Part shown: positions 4,652 to 26,154 of the stretch, piece by piece
Layout of the letters: each line of letters opens with the position of its first letter
Position numbering within the stretch: position 1 is the stretch's first letter
DNA from: a virus
Strand: one strand, 5' to 3'
DNA length: 29,585 nucleotides
Virus record (IMG/VR): IMGVR_UViG_3300024306_000067
Coordinates: 1-29,585 of that record
Position numbers and translations under genes: made by a program
The notes under the pieces: model-generated
Told to the model about the DNA's origin: nothing
What the model saw: the letters and a program-made list of their open reading frames with translations, nothing else
Databases searched by the model: none

Positions 4652-4828
4652 ATGGAACAGCTTTCGCCCAACGACATTCAAGAGTGGCAACGTGCTGACA
4701 ACAGCAAGGGCGGTAAGCCCGAGGCCGCTCCCTATCAAGTTGATCCCAAGACCGTCACCGGCCCGAAGGATCAGATGAACAGCAAGATCGCCACGCCGAC
4801 CCACCCGAAAGGCGGCATGGTTTGCTGA
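4652..4828 (+). CDS. Small hypothetical protein between portal and scaffold
   Basis: A 58-residue polar protein ending in the motif HPKGGMVC, which echoes the GGMVGNC ending region of the gene just upstream. The ATG at 4652 is preferred over the in-frame GTG at 4640 because GTGAGG sits six bases before it as a ribosome binding site. No domain is recognised. Its place in the packaging/head operon suggests a structural or assembly role. The stop codon overlaps the next gene's start. Confidence 0.6.
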   Translation: MEQLSPNDIQEWQRADNSKGGKPEAAPYQVDPKTVTGPKDQMNSKIATPTHPKGGMVC

Positions 4829-5055
4829 AGAAACCATCACACGAGGTTTTAGTTGCCCTGTCATCGCTACAGGGCAACTTGCAATTCGAGACCATCCGAA
4901 CCTGGCTCGAGGAATCCCTGCAAGACCTGTATCGCGACTCCTGCAACACCAAGGACGAAACTCTGTCCAGGTGGCAACAGGGAGCCGCACAGGCTGTTGG
5001 CGACTTCCTCGATAAAGCCAAGGACTCCGGAGAAGCTCTCCGCAGATCGCGGTAA
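4822..5055 (+). CDS. Small conserved helical phage protein, TTG start
   Basis: A 77-residue protein with a predicted mostly helical fold. It has a regular pattern: HEVLVALSSLQG, then RTWLEESLQDL, then LSRWQQGAAQAVGDFL. I recall similar short proteins in the head modules of other podophages, without known function. It starts at TTG (4822), seven bases inside the preceding gene, with no in-frame ATG near the N-terminus, so translation is probably coupled. It is followed by a 133-base gap with hairpins before the scaffold-like gene. Confidence 0.7.
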   Translation: MLKKPSHEVLVALSSLQGNLQFETIRTWLEESLQDLYRDSCNTKDETLSRWQQGAAQAVGDFLDKAKDSGEALRRSR

Positions 5056-7080: not shown

Positions 7081-7101
7081 CCATTTTCCTCCCTCGCCCT
7101 T

Positions 7102-7135
7102 AACCGCCCTGGGGAAACCTGGGGCGGTTTCTTTT
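7102..7135 (+). terminator. Intrinsic terminator 2 after the capsid gene
   Basis: AACCGCCC (7102-7109) and GGGCGGTT (7122-7129) form a perfect 8-bp stem around a 12-nt loop, running straight into TTTCTTTT. It is the second of a tandem pair. The next gene starts only 12 bases later, so downstream genes need read-through or an unseen promoter. Confidence 0.88.
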
Positions 7136-8980: not shown

Positions 8981-9264
8981 CGTTGCAACAGCTTGGCATC
9001 CGCGCTCTGTCCCAACAGATCGTGGAGATCGCGATATGTCGCCACGGTAAACAGATCTGTCGGGTTCCGACGACAACAGATTCAACAGACGACAGCGTGA
9101 CGTTCATCGCTGATCTGGGCGACCGAGATCTCGGCGAGTTCGACGAAATCAAGGTCTTTGAGGGAGGCGAGCTCGTGCGGCAGAAGAGCATTCCGCCGGA
9201 GCTCAAGCACGCGCCAGATTCGGCGCAAGTCCGGTGGAAGATCACCGTCGAAGCACAAGATTGA
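8977..9264 (+). CDS. Small hypothetical virion-module protein
   Basis: A 95-residue protein translationally coupled to the connector gene by ATGA. It has a beta-rich, acidic composition with repeated Asp/Glu/Phe turns (FIADLGDRDLGEFDEIKVF). No known motif, signal or membrane segment is visible. Placed between connectors and the long fibre, it may be a fibre-attachment or tail accessory protein. This is inference from position only. Confidence 0.7.
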   Translation: MTLQQLGIRALSQQIVEIAICRHGKQICRVPTTTDSTDDSVTFIADLGDRDLGEFDEIKVFEGGELVRQKSIPPELKHAPDSAQVRWKITVEAQD

Positions 9265-14944: not shown

Positions 14945-15385
14945 ATGGAAATCAGAATTCGCACCACCGGTCAGGTGGTCGGCGAGGGCGAGTTTCGCGC
15001 TTTGTTCCCGGACACATCGTTCCCGGCGCGACTGACTCCCGAGCTCCTCGACGAGCTCGGCGCTGACCCCGTGCTCGAGGGGCCCCAAGCCCAGCCGACT
15101 AGGTACCAGTCCGCCTACCGCGATGGCGTCGAACAGATCGACGGCCAGTGGTTTACCAAGTGGTCTGTCTCAGAAATGACAGACGAGGCGAAGGCCGCGC
15201 TCGACGCTCGACAGGCAGAGTCTGTCCGCGCCGAACGCAACAGATTGCTGGCCGCAACAGACTGGCGCTTCCGCAGTGACCTCGCCCCGTCACAGGAGTG
15301 GAAGGACTACTGCCAAGCCCTTCGCGACATTACCAGCCAAGCCGGATTCCCGTGGGAAGTCACTTGGCCCACACAGCCGGAGTAA
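14945..15385 (+). CDS. Tail fibre assembly chaperone-like protein (first copy)
   Basis: A 146-residue protein. Its C-terminal part (RNRLLAATDWRF, then WKDYCQALRDITSQAGFPW) matches the conserved end of the phage tail assembly chaperone family (Phage_tail_APC type), found next to many fibre genes. The N-terminal part, with LFPDTSFPARLTPELLDELG, is a separate beta/helix segment also common in these proteins. It probably helps fold or attach the adjacent adhesins. A paralogue with the same C-terminal motif lies at 24025-24552 beside the second fibre. Its DNA returns to the GC-rich, GAGCTC-containing style. AAGGAGT precedes the ATG. Confidence 0.8.
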   Translation: MEIRIRTTGQVVGEGEFRALFPDTSFPARLTPELLDELGADPVLEGPQAQPTRYQSAYRDGVEQIDGQWFTKWSVSEMTDEAKAALDARQAESVRAERNRLLAATDWRFRSDLAPSQEWKDYCQALRDITSQAGFPWEVTWPTQPE

Positions 15386-17564: not shown

Positions 17565-17585
17565 CAGTATTGGAAGTGACGACAA

Positions 17586-17612
17586 GACCCGCTTTGGCGG
17601 GTTTTTTGTTTT
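17586..17612 (+). terminator. Intrinsic terminator ending the adhesin module
   Basis: ACCCGC (17587-17592) and GCGGGT (17597-17602) form a perfect 6-bp stem around TTTG, followed by a run of T (17602-17607) and TTTT shortly after. It separates the adhesin genes from the lysis cassette, whose first ribosome binding site begins only bases later. Confidence 0.88.
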
Positions 17613-22268: not shown

Positions 22269-24046
22269 CCCGCGAAACCCTAGTCCCCGCCATTCCCGAG
22301 ATCCGGGACGACAACATCAAGGAGGTGTTGTCTGCCATCAAGGCGACCCTCCAGGTGCGCGAGGGCAACATTGGCGACCCTCTGGATCAGGCGGCAACGC
22401 TTCGGGATCTGGTCGCCCTGAATGTGGCAGACCCGGACACGGTCACGACCAACAACGCCGGGAACCAGCTACCGGTGGGCCCCATCGTCCCGCTCCCAAG
22501 CGACGGCTACATCCCGGAGAAGGACTTCACGACTCCGCCCGCGCCGACGGGATTCGTGGCAACAGGCGGCTTCTCGAACTGTTATCTGTCCTGGACTGGG
22601 GCGAATTACCGCAACCACGCCTACACCGAGATCTGGCGCTCGCAGACCAACAACGTCAACACGGCAGTCCGGGTGGGCACGACGGTCTCCAACGTCTACG
22701 CCGACGCCGCCGTCATCAACACGACCTACTACTACTGGATTCGGTTCGTCTCGGTAGCCAACGTCACCGGCCCGTGGAACAACACGACGGGCACTGCCGC
22801 CACGACAGCGGTGGATGTGAGCTCGGCCTACGACGCAATCTTCAACGCCACGGTCGCGAACGGGAACTACAACTCTGGCGTCCCGTTCATCTACCTGAGC
22901 TCGCCGCTGACGATTGGCGGGATCACGTACCCCGCTGGTACGTGGATCAAGGACAGCTTCATTGCCAACGCCACGATCTCGAGCGCCAAGATCCAAAGTC
23001 TGGTGGCCGACAAGATCACGACCGGAACCCTGAGCGCGTCCATCGGGATCAGCACTGGCTACATCGCTGGCGGCATCACCCCCGGCATCTACCCCCCTGG
23101 ACACCAGTTCTTCGGGACTGGCTTCTTCCTGGGCAACTACAACGGTACGCAACAGTTCTACATCGGATCGTCGACCAACAATCTGTTGTGGAACGGCACC
23201 GACCTCCAGGTCAAGGGGATCATCTACGCCAACGCCGGAGCCATCGGCACGAACATCCTGGACGCAAACGGGCTTCGCTCGAGCAACTTCGCGGCGAACT
23301 CGGCTGGCTGGAGACTCCAGAACAGCGGTTCCGCTGAGTTCAACGACGTCTACCTTCGAGGTCAACTGACCGCTGGCGCAAGCACGGGGTACGCCTACAA
23401 CCCAAACGGGCAGTGGGGTCTGTACATCGGCCCATCCGGGTTCTTGATGGGCAACGCTTTTGCTGGTCGCTACTTCAGTATCGACGGAAGCGGGAACGTG
23501 TATGCGCCTGGGTTCCAGATTGTCAACGGCTCGGCGACTTTCAGCGGGAATGTCAGCGCCAACACGCTGTCGACAAACTCCGGTCGATTCACTGCGTACG
23601 CCGACGGCTCTGTGGTTGCGGACTTGGTCGACATTCGTCGCCGCTTGGTGCTGGAGACTGGAGCTCTTGACCCGGCGGAATTTGTGATTGGGACAGACGG
23701 CAACGGGAACTACTACGGAGCCGGAACGGTGTTCATTGGAGAGATCTATCAGATCGTCTTCACCAACATCTACGACTCAAACACCCAGAACACCTACGCC
23801 AACCAGCCGTATTACGTTTCGGCGTATTTCACCGGCAGTCAGTTCCGCAACTACAGCGGTGGCACAACAGAATTTAACCTCAAGCTCACCGCCAGCGTTG
23901 AGCCTGTTCGCACCTACTCCAACACGGGGTCTGGTGGAAACGACTATCGCTTGGCGCTCACCTTCAAGTACGAAATCAAGTTGGTATCCGGCACCTTTAA
24001 CTCGTTCCGACTCCCGACTGCTTCATGGACGCTTTACAAGCTGTAA
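22265..24046 (+). CDS. Central fibre / J-like host-specificity protein
   Basis: A 593-residue fibre protein. Residues about 1-75 are helical and may join it to the nozzle. Residues about 90-185 look like a fibronectin type III domain (PPAPTGFVATGG, then YYYWIRFVSVANVTGPW). The next region (SAYDAIFNATVANGNYNSG, TWIKDSFIANATISSAKIQS, LVADKITTGTLSASIG) matches the type found in the C-terminal half of siphophage tail-tip protein J. The remainder is beta-rich (NLLWNGTDLQVKG, GWRLQNSGSAEFNDVYLRG) and ends near NSFRLPTASWTLYKL. It is probably a host-recognition fibre distinct from the 9297-17564 system. Confidence 0.8.
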   Translation: MTRETLVPAIPEIRDDNIKEVLSAIKATLQVREGNIGDPLDQAATLRDLVALNVADPDTVTTNNAGNQLPVGPIVPLPSDGYIPEKDFTTPPAPTGFVATGGFSNCYLSWTGANYRNHAYTEIWRSQTNNVNTAVRVGTTVSNVYADAAVINTTYYYWIRFVSVANVTGPWNNTTGTAATTAVDVSSAYDAIFNATVANGNYNSGVPFIYLSSPLTIGGITYPAGTWIKDSFIANATISSAKIQSLVADKITTGTLSASIGISTGYIAGGITPGIYPPGHQFFGTGFFLGNYNGTQQFYIGSSTNNLLWNGTDLQVKGIIYANAGAIGTNILDANGLRSSNFAANSAGWRLQNSGSAEFNDVYLRGQLTAGASTGYAYNPNGQWGLYIGPSGFLMGNAFAGRYFSIDGSGNVYAPGFQIVNGSATFSGNVSANTLSTNSGRFTAYADGSVVADLVDIRRRLVLETGALDPAEFVIGTDGNGNYYGAGTVFIGEIYQIVFTNIYDSNTQNTYANQPYYVSAYFTGSQFRNYSGGTTEFNLKLTASVEPVRTYSNTGSGGNDYRLALTFKYEIKLVSGTFNSFRLPTASWTLYKL

Positions 24047-24552
24047 ACCCGATGTATGCAAAGATTGACCCTAATGGATTCTTCGATGGCTATATCGCGA
24101 AAGCGGCGGTCAACGAGCACAACCAGCACCTTGTCGTAGAGGCCGAGCTCCCCGAGGTATTGCTCCAGCCTCTGCAAAGCTGGCGCTGGCAAAACAACCA
24201 GTGGACGGCGGCAACAGACCATCGCGGCCACTCCTGGTACAACCCGGACAACACCGACGAGGTGTTCGAGGCCAAGAAGTTTGACGATGTCCCGCCGCAA
24301 GGCTGGACGTGGTGGCAACCTGGTCAGACCCCGGTCATCACCCCGGCAGAGGCGCTCCGCAAGAAGTGGGCGGCAGTCCGCGCCAAGCGCGACAAGTTGC
24401 TGGCCGAAAGCGACTGGGTTGCGATCCGTGCCGCAGACCAGGGAACGCCAGTTCCGAAGGCGTGGAAGGATTACCGTCAGGCGTTGCGCGACATCACGCA
24501 ACAGACAACAGATCCCGACCAGATCGTGTGGCCTGTGAAGCCTTCCGCCTAA
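24025..24552 (+). CDS. Tail fibre assembly chaperone-like protein (second copy)
   Basis: A 175-residue protein. Its C-terminal segment (KRDKLLAESDW, then AWKDYRQALRDITQQ and IVWPVKP) is the tail assembly chaperone motif and is clearly related to that of the 14945-15385 protein. The N-terminal half (MYAKIDPNGFFDGYIAKAA, then WRWQNNQWTAATDHRG) differs, suggesting specialisation for the preceding J-like fibre. Two starts are possible: ATG 24025, overlapping the fibre gene by 22 bases, or ATG 24052 (MYAKIDP), after it. Neither has a convincing ribosome binding site, so translational coupling is likely. Confidence 0.82.
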   Translation: MDALQAVNPMYAKIDPNGFFDGYIAKAAVNEHNQHLVVEAELPEVLLQPLQSWRWQNNQWTAATDHRGHSWYNPDNTDEVFEAKKFDDVPPQGWTWWQPGQTPVITPAEALRKKWAAVRAKRDKLLAESDWVAIRAADQGTPVPKAWKDYRQALRDITQQTTDPDQIVWPVKPSA

Positions 24553-24569
24553 CCACAACTGCATCCAAT

Positions 24570-24626
24570 TTGCCCTTGTTTTGCACTGTTCGTCGATAAA
24601 ATCGGCGACATCGAAACGAAGGGCAA
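24570..24626 (+). promoter_or_regulatory. Long stem-loop sequestering the acetyltransferase ribosome binding site
   Basis: The outer stem pairs TTGCCCTTGTTTTG (24570-24583) with CGAAAC and AAGGGCAA (24612-24617 and 24619-24626): 14 pairs with one bulged G and one G-T. The inner hairpin TCGTCGAT (24590-24597) / ATCGGCGA (24601-24608) has eight pairs, one G-T, around AAA. A small internal loop lies between them. The 3' arm contains the Shine-Dalgarno-like GAAGGG of the gene starting at 24629. No T-run follows, so it is not an intrinsic terminator. It may be a translational switch, protein-binding operator or RNase III processing site. Confidence 0.6.
24576..24602 (+). promoter_or_regulatory. 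Weak promoter-like boxes in the same gap
   Basis: TAAAAT (24597-24602) resembles a -10 box at 5/6 positions, and TTGTTT (24576-24581) a -35 box, but the 15-bp spacer is short and both lie inside the stem-loop described at 24570-24626. The RNA structure is the better explanation for this sequence. Confidence 0.2.
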
Positions 24627-24628
24627 CG

Positions 24629-25078
24629 ATGCTGAAAGTACGACGCGCAACAGAAGACGATCACCTCGATCTCTTCAAGCTCGCGGTGCAGATGCACCGT
24701 GAGACCGACTTTCAGCATTTCACTCTAAATCCAGAGAAGCTGTTCAATAGCATCGGCAACTGGATTCACCACGAGAGCGGGATCTGCCTCGTGGCAATCA
24801 AAGACAACACGCTGGTTGGCATGATGTTCGGAACGATCATGCCGACTTGGTTCAGCGACGATCTTGTCGCTCGAGAAGATCTTCTCTTTGTTCGCCCGGA
24901 TCACCGTGGTGGACGCACTGCCTACATCCTCGTTCGCTCCTTCATGGAAGCGGTAAAGGGTGCTGGCATCAAGCACGTACAGACAGGTGTTTCGACAGGT
25001 TCAGGCCAGGGTGCGGAACGACTGTACCGGCATTTTGGAATGACCTACATGGGTGGCAACTTCGTCGCCCATTTTTGA
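24629..25078 (+). CDS. GNAT-family N-acetyltransferase
   Basis: A 149-residue single-domain enzyme predicted to transfer acetyl from acetyl-CoA to an amine. The N-terminus MLKVRRATEDDHLDLFKL is the GNAT strand-helix start. The acetyl-CoA loop is VRPDHRGGRTAYILV (about residues 89-103), preceded by the strand EDLLFV. A C-terminal GQGAERLYRHFGM motif (about 128-140) is the usual late GNAT signature. The substrate cannot be read from the sequence: host protein, phage protein, polyamine or small molecule. GNAT genes do occur in phage virion modules, and this one sits between tail and ejection genes. Its leader is strongly structured. The next gene starts 11 bases later. Confidence 0.88.
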   Translation: MLKVRRATEDDHLDLFKLAVQMHRETDFQHFTLNPEKLFNSIGNWIHHESGICLVAIKDNTLVGMMFGTIMPTWFSDDLVAREDLLFVRPDHRGGRTAYILVRSFMEAVKGAGIKHVQTGVSTGSGQGAERLYRHFGMTYMGGNFVAHF

Positions 25079-25089
25079 AGGAGTAGCTT

Positions 25090-26154
25090 ATGTGTGGCAA
25101 AGGTGGTGGTGGAGCTCCGGCTCCAGATCCGTTGATCGGACAAGCGGCAAAGCTGAACGCTGAGACTGCCGCCCAAGCTCTGACTTGGTACAAGGACGTT
25201 TACACCAACGAACTGTTGCCGATGCAACGCGAGCAACAGGACATGACTCGCACGTTGGTGGATCGGTACCTCGCCAACATGGAGAAGCAACAGCAGTTCG
25301 CTGAGGAGCAGAACGCTTACTACGAGAAGACGTTCAAGCCCATCGAAGAGCGCATGGCGAAGGACGCGATGGAGTACGACTCCGAGGGCAACATTCAGCG
25401 CCGCTCCGGTATCGCCTCCGCCAACGTCGCACAACAGTTCTCCAACGCCCAGCAAGAGACCGCACGCAATCTGTCGCGCTACGGCCTGAACCCCAACAGT
25501 TCAGCCTTCGCCGCCACCAACGAGCGGCTGATGCGCGAGTCGGCGCTTGGTCGTGCTGGTGCGGCAACGGGTGCCGCATTCGACACGATGGACAGGGGCA
25601 TCGCCCTGCGTGCCGGTGCCGCCAACTTCGGTCGCAATATGCCGAACACGGCATCCAACTTCTACAGCAACGCGAATGCGTCTGGAGCCAACGCTACCAA
25701 CGCTTCCGCGACCAACATGAACTCGGCGATTCAAGCCGGTAACTTTGCTGGGCAAGGATTCAACACCGCAATTCAGGGCAACAACTCCGCTGGCAACCTC
25801 ATGCTCGGCGAGTATAACGCTCGGATGCAGGGCTACCAAGCAGACCAGCAAGCCAATGCTGGTATGTGGGGCGGCGTCGGGACACTCGCTGGCTTGGGCA
25901 TCAAAGCCTACGCCAGCAACCCTGCGGCCTTCGCCGGTCTGGCGGATGGCGGCACAGTCCACGAGGGGCACGGCGCGGTGCGCGGCCCAGGTGGCCCGGT
26001 CGACGACAAGATCCCGGCAATGCTCTCCAACGGCGAGTACGTGGTTCCCGCCGATGTGGTGCGTGCCAAGGGACTCGAGTTCTTCGAGAAGCTCAAAGAC
26101 AAGTACCACACCCCGGCGGCTATCCAGCGTCGTCAAGCGATTCAGAGAGGTTAA
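25090..26154 (+). CDS. Probable internal virion / ejection protein 1
   Basis: A 354-residue protein starting MCGKGGGGAPAPDPLIGQAA. Residues about 15-110 are helical and Gln/Glu-rich (LPMQREQQDMTRTLVDRYL). The middle (about 130-260) is Ala/Asn-rich with many NAS/NAT steps. A hydrophobic Gly/Ala segment (about 257-280) could contact membrane. The C-terminus holds LADGGTVHEGHGAVRGPGGP followed by PAMLSNGEYVVPADVV, a phage-protein ending I recall from podophage ejection modules. It probably travels inside the head and leaves with the DNA. It shares ADGG with the small protein at 4290-4643. GAAGGAG is the ribosome binding site. Confidence 0.78.
   Translation: MCGKGGGGAPAPDPLIGQAAKLNAETAAQALTWYKDVYTNELLPMQREQQDMTRTLVDRYLANMEKQQQFAEEQNAYYEKTFKPIEERMAKDAMEYDSEGNIQRRSGIASANVAQQFSNAQQETARNLSRYGLNPNSSAFAATNERLMRESALGRAGAATGAAFDTMDRGIALRAGAANFGRNMPNTASNFYSNANASGANATNASATNMNSAIQAGNFAGQGFNTAIQGNNSAGNLMLGEYNARMQGYQADQQANAGMWGGVGTLAGLGIKAYASNPAAFAGLADGGTVHEGHGAVRGPGGPVDDKIPAMLSNGEYVVPADVVRAKGLEFFEKLKDKYHTPAAIQRRQAIQRG

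Follow-up and report, generated by a model that had tools for sequence, protein, structure and literature searches.

What purpose could be served by a strong RNA hairpin that fills the gap between two genes of a phage late region and holds the ribosome binding site of the second? The stretch of DNA analysed here, called the window, spans a virus record of 29.6 kb from a short-tailed phage and belongs to its late region; the genes run in the order terminase, portal, capsid, tail genes, endolysin, internal virion protein, tail fibre, fibre chaperone, GNAT acetyltransferase and virion proteins; all genes of interest lie on the + strand. We call the virion proteins 3' of GNAT the 'ejection block', a name taken over from the initial annotation. 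The best listed hits of the internal virion protein are proteins of Vibrio, Aeromonas and Achromobacter phages (33-36%), and Stx and Burkholderia phages are also present among the 168 records that match it. No near DNA relative of the window was found among cultured phages, and a GNAT relative was confirmed in none of the genome contigs searched. The window carries two tail-fibre assembly chaperone genes (14945-15385 and 24025-24552), the products of which have similar C-termini. The features of the locus are collected in Table 1.

Table 1. Genes, RNA structures and promoter-like elements around the GNAT start (window coordinates)
Feature	Position	Strand	Remarks
Tail-fibre assembly chaperone	24025..24552	+	Upstream gene; stop 17 nt 5' of the hairpin and 76 nt 5' of the GNAT start
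Outer stem, 5' arm	24570..24583	+	TTGCCCTTGTTTTG; from folding
Weak -35-like hexamer TTGTTT (putative)	24576..24581	+	PWM scan; in the 5' arm; 15-nt spacer
Upper stem	24587..24610	+	3 bp, bulged U24590, 7 bp, AAA triloop 24598-24600; from folding
-10-like hexamer TAAAAT	24597..24602	+	Hairpin apex; sole + strand TARAAT of the 29.6-kb window
Predicted transcription start, about 24609	24607..24611	+	7 nt past the -10; transcript would lack the 5' arm
Outer stem, 3' arm	24612..24626	+	Bulged G24618; from folding
Shine-Dalgarno (SD) GAAGGG	24618..24623	+	Within the 3' arm; AUG at 24629
Second RNA domain, three-way junction	about 24628..24719	+	Ends inside the GNAT ORF; z -6.9
GNAT acetyltransferase	24629..25078	+	phrog_1249, PF00583
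Virion (ejection-block) protein	25090..26154	+	phrog_8003; downstream of GNAT; query for syntenic relatives

The gap (24553-24628) folds as an irregular 24-bp hairpin. In the 14-bp outer stem, 24570-24583 is paired with 24612-24617 and 24619-24626, which leaves G24618 bulged, and a 3x1 internal loop separates this stem from the upper one. The stem-loop reported at 24570-24626 by the initial annotation is thus present, with GAAGGG inside the outer 3' arm as described, but it counts 14 + 3 + 7 pairs rather than 14 + 8. The region 24550-24650 has a computed energy of -33.0 kcal/mol (z -4.29) and 24566-24640 a z of -4.60, and in neither case was any of 200 shuffled sequences as stable. Taken with 5-nt flanks, the gap reaches z -6.1, the most extreme value among the gaps scored. 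The statement that pairing is far stronger here than in any other gap holds, then, for z-scores; it fails for absolute energy, since the gap 3' of the capsid gene, which contains a terminator-like stem, has a lower raw value (-45.3 kcal/mol, z -3.7).

A search of Rfam gave no match above the gathering score, and a terminator reading of the hairpin was rejected for want of a U tract 3' of the stem. Terminator-like stems were seen elsewhere in the window: a 12-bp GC-rich stem at 7097-7135, followed by TTTCTTTT and located between the capsid gene and 7147, and another at 17585-17610 (GACCCGCTTTGGCGGGTTTTTT), between 17564 and 17625. Against an expectation of 3.8, the window has 16 sites of the pair TTGCCCT/AGGGCAA, and most of them read AGGGCAA on the + strand.

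The structure does not stop at the end of the gap. A fold extending into the GNAT ORF, a masked start codon and the TAAAAT in the hairpin loop had all been missed initially. The second domain is closed by a stem in which the AUG region, 24628-24642, pairs with 24706-24719 (ATGCTGAAAGT with ACTTTCAGCAT). The fold of 24540-24740 has a z of -6.9, and 24601-24800 has the lowest z among 294 windows of 200 nt. The two neighbouring masking domains score -5.5 (hairpin) and -6.9 (second domain) when taken separately, and the first 180 nt of the GNAT ORF are more stable than all of 300 synonymous recodings (z -4.3).

Masking of translation starts was measured as the cost of opening positions -18 to +6 around the ATG. 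For GNAT this cost is 26.6 kcal/mol, which ranks first both among the 351 ATGs of the window and among its 28 gene starts; the runner-up gene start costs 16.9 kcal/mol, or 18.2 if the alternative start at 4822 is used. Compared with shuffles, the GNAT cost has a z of 5.26 (0/100 as high), for 2.4 at the next gene. The same test gave 16.6 kcal/mol and z 3.5 for T4 gene e, below GNAT in both respects, and 11.5 kcal/mol and z 0.7 for Mu mom. As the latter is a proven lock and nevertheless scores low, the test is specific rather than sensitive. The computations (GNAT first among 351 ATGs, z 5.3, above T4 gene e) lend good support to a buried ribosome binding site and to a translational switch, one of the functions initially proposed for the stem. 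Another candidate lock in the window, at 4851-4879 (an 11-bp perfect stem ending in AGGGCAAC, with TTG next; AGTTGCCCTGT/ACAGGGCAACT; z -5.4), was set aside, being most likely inside the ORF 4822-5055.

How could such a start be opened? Translational coupling of GNAT to the chaperone gene is disfavoured, because a stop codon 76 nt away is too far. We tentatively favour, at somewhat less than even chances, a switch of the T4 gene e type, in which a local promoter wrapped in an RNA lock controls GNAT. Read-through mRNA coming from the upstream tail genes would fold the hairpin at once, completing it ahead of AUG emergence; the SD would be hidden, as would the AUG once the second domain forms, and GNAT would stay silent on this mRNA. 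Were RNA polymerase to start locally, with TAAAAT (24597-24602) as -10 and +1 at about 24609, the message would lack the whole 5' arm, so that the SD would be free, ahead of synthesis of the distal strand of the second domain, and GNAT could be translated. The motif would then act as a promoter and the hairpin as a repressor in vivo, and timing would presumably be the purpose of the device.

The energetics of release were computed by truncating the RNA in silico. Once the 5' end lies at 24580 or later, opening the ribosome binding site alone costs about 1-2 kcal/mol instead of 13-14. For nascent RNA, opening the SD-AUG region costs about 18-19 kcal/mol on the read-through molecule, versus 5-7 kcal/mol after a local start. 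The AUG of the local transcript is still paired in the second domain, at about 7 kcal/mol.

Loss of the 5' arm may also result from cleavage. In this main rival, RNase III would cut the irregular stem in read-through mRNA, splitting the tail from the ejection messages and freeing the downstream SD. A 24-bp irregular stem is long enough for the enzyme, which needs about 20 bp or more, comparable stems precede late genes in T7, and the truncation series indicates that a 3'-side cut near the internal loop, leaving a 5' end near 24610, would free the SD. We nevertheless regard cleavage as unlikely. The T7 sites (R0.3 to R18.5), folded alongside at what we take to be their positions, resemble the GNAT hairpin in being irregular stems between phage genes, but on visual comparison of the folds their layout is different: a lower stem, an asymmetric loop and an upper stem of 9-10 bp, with the SD left unburied. 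Moreover, no further T7-like irregular stem is present among the scored gaps, and cleavage leaves unexplained the conserved TARAAT motif described below.

The lock may instead be opened by a phage factor that binds the leader or the hairpin, the local promoter playing no role. Masking of both SD and AUG fits this scheme, for which there is a precedent in Mu mom, where a start-codon hairpin is opened by Com (PMC6483171). Against it, no Com-type zinc ribbon (PF10122) was matched in the window, a weak search given that the control genomes gave no match either and that the record is a fragment; the relatives, furthermore, have no conserved binding site, and the conserved motif would again be left without a role. 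We consider such a factor very unlikely.

The reading in which GNAT depends on a local promoter draws on the position of TAAAAT. This -10-like hexamer is unique on the + strand of the window and its position is conserved, while the -35 is weak. The site at 24597-24602 was missed by a simple sigma-70 scan. Conservation was examined in 58 relatives of the 25090-26154 gene, fetched for synteny, and the gene order in these relatives agrees with the initial proposal that the tail genes end, and the ejection genes begin, at the hairpin gap. Most of the 58 contain a single TANAAT within about 6 kb, which in about half of them lies directly 5' of the first block gene. The motif stands 6-35 nt upstream of that gene, which in many relatives is a phrog_1249 GNAT and in others encodes a short tail fibre (phrog_12032). 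Across 14 related records, which amount to about 780 kb, the 70-nt leaders of first block genes contain 11 of the 36 TARAAT occurrences, for 0.02 expected (nominal P about 2e-26, with related genomes counted as independent). The motif is present in 20/24 real leaders versus 4% of shuffled ones, some of the 24 starts having been picked next to it, and in 15/20 leaders when starts are derived from GNAT reading frames. The simplest reading of the TARAAT motif is a promoter. The conserved element of the locus is a promoter-like motif inside the hairpin, which is new relative to the initial annotation.

Two sub-types of the motif can be distinguished. The first is C-rich, about CCYCCCACC-TARAAT, with an ATG 6-9 nt later and no SD; C-rich copies are also present 5' of other genes (G003:222, G012:7088, G013:22645). 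In related phages, CCCNCC-TAGAAT was likewise observed 5' of other genes (L305:222; L309, - strand, 408; L312:446), two of which encode MPGF... proteins, and these sites possibly form a small promoter family. The second sub-type reads GTCAACA-N3-TGTTG...GGTAAAATCG, where (T/G)CAACA, 17 nt before TAAAAT, is -35-like. A CAACA-N3-TGTTG dyad about 20 nt 5' of TAAAAT was noted in seven leaders (L273, L277, L279, L282, L289, L290, L293), where it may be an operator.

Such dyads bear on another explanation, in which the promoter is governed at the DNA level: a dyad around the -10 (GTCGATAAAATCGGC) would bind a repressor or an activator, and the RNA hairpin would be largely a by-product. The upper stem is indeed centred on the -10, and relatives have their dyad close to the same motif. 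However, the dyads differ in sequence and in place, and neither the 14-bp outer stem nor the in-ORF second domain finds an explanation, so that a DNA operator, too, seems to us improbable.

The distribution of the hairpin itself is narrow. It was expected to be conserved in relatives and is not: apart from the window, a single IMG/VR contig carries it, which differs by 1 base in 6.4 kb. Model R1 matched the window, this twin and, weakly, the GNAT start of L087, and nothing else. With the hairpin limited to the window and a near-identical contig, selection on pairing cannot be shown by compensatory change. No covariation was found for the second domain: across three homologues, of about 50% protein identity, 68.9% of cells are paired, versus 67.4% in shuffles. 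The combination TAAAATCGG...ATGCTGAA, tried as a specific marker, was abandoned because viral contigs matched it at least 119 times.

Most motif-bearing relatives also lack a strong lock, and the hairpin is hence best seen as something that this lineage has added to a promoter-like site of wider conservation. Locking as a general trait of phage GNAT genes was rejected on the same ground and because the cultured-phage homologues have z values of at most about 1 relative to all ATGs of their loci; the GNAT genes of cultured phages mostly overlap or abut the preceding gene. One may ask, then, whether the hairpin is incidental, or weakly selected and merely lowering GNAT output, next to a conserved ejection-block promoter. 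That the motif is conserved and the hairpin is not, and that the first gene past the motif varies among relatives (GNAT or short tail fibre), would both be accounted for. Yet two adjoining masking domains (z -5.5 and -6.9), together with the synonymous-codon result (z -4.3, 0/300), are unlikely to arise by chance, and we judge an incidental hairpin quite unlikely, if slightly less so than a DNA operator or an opening factor.

Among the relatives that bear the motif, L087 repeats this logic with an unrelated, perfect 14-bp hairpin (z -4.2): its stem contains the AUG, its loop the SD, and its 5' arm has TAGAAT at the base; the opening cost of 17.1 falls to about 4 if the RNA starts at 9193, within the 5' arm. 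In L073, L082, L262 and L270, the motif stands 6 nt before the ATG and an SD is absent, an arrangement to be expected of leaderless mRNA that is made solely from a local promoter. Leaderless designs would achieve uncoupling too, because read-through mRNA would present no SD to the ribosome. It is conceivable, although rather doubtful, that in this clade of short-tailed phages translation of the first ejection-block gene is uncoupled from late read-through by three designs tied to a conserved local promoter, namely an SD-masking hairpin, an AUG-masking hairpin and a leaderless start without SD.

If the switch proposed for GNAT is real, the promoter-inside-hairpin trick of T4 gene e would have an independent counterpart in phages of an unrelated group, on a GNAT gene at the tail/ejection boundary, and the conserved TARAAT would represent a rare case of a promoter internal to a late operon. 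The locus would also make it possible to test directly when phages keep GNAT silent on the late message, and for what reason.

Among known systems, the homing endonuclease genes mobE of Aeh1 and segB of T4, which likewise stand between other phage genes, have their ribosome binding sites sequestered in RNA hairpins (PMC3014915); GNAT is no homing endonuclease, however, and its hairpin coincides with a promoter-like site that is conserved. The start signals of an enzyme gene are predicted to be locked by RNA structure, as in Mu mom, where the translation inhibition structure includes the start-codon hairpin opened by Com (PMC6483171); unlike at that thermodynamically mild site (11.5 kcal/mol), no Com was found in the window. 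The closest parallel is T4 gene e, together with soc, 49 and I-TevI, where a hairpin over the ribosome binding site, a proven RNA lock, has a late promoter in its 5' strand (PMC3014915). As judged in silico, the GNAT locus shares with gene e an SD placed in a hairpin on long transcripts and a promoter-like element in the hairpin region, such that local transcripts would be without the 5' arm and have the SD freed. It differs from gene e in belonging to an unrelated phage group, in the gene concerned (GNAT here, lysozyme in T4), and in having its -10 in the loop, a larger stem and an extra second domain that masks the AUG. The T4 late promoter TATAAATA is not matched by the sequence found here, GATAAAATC, which places the locus outside the T4 late-promoter set and makes the two systems alike in logic only.
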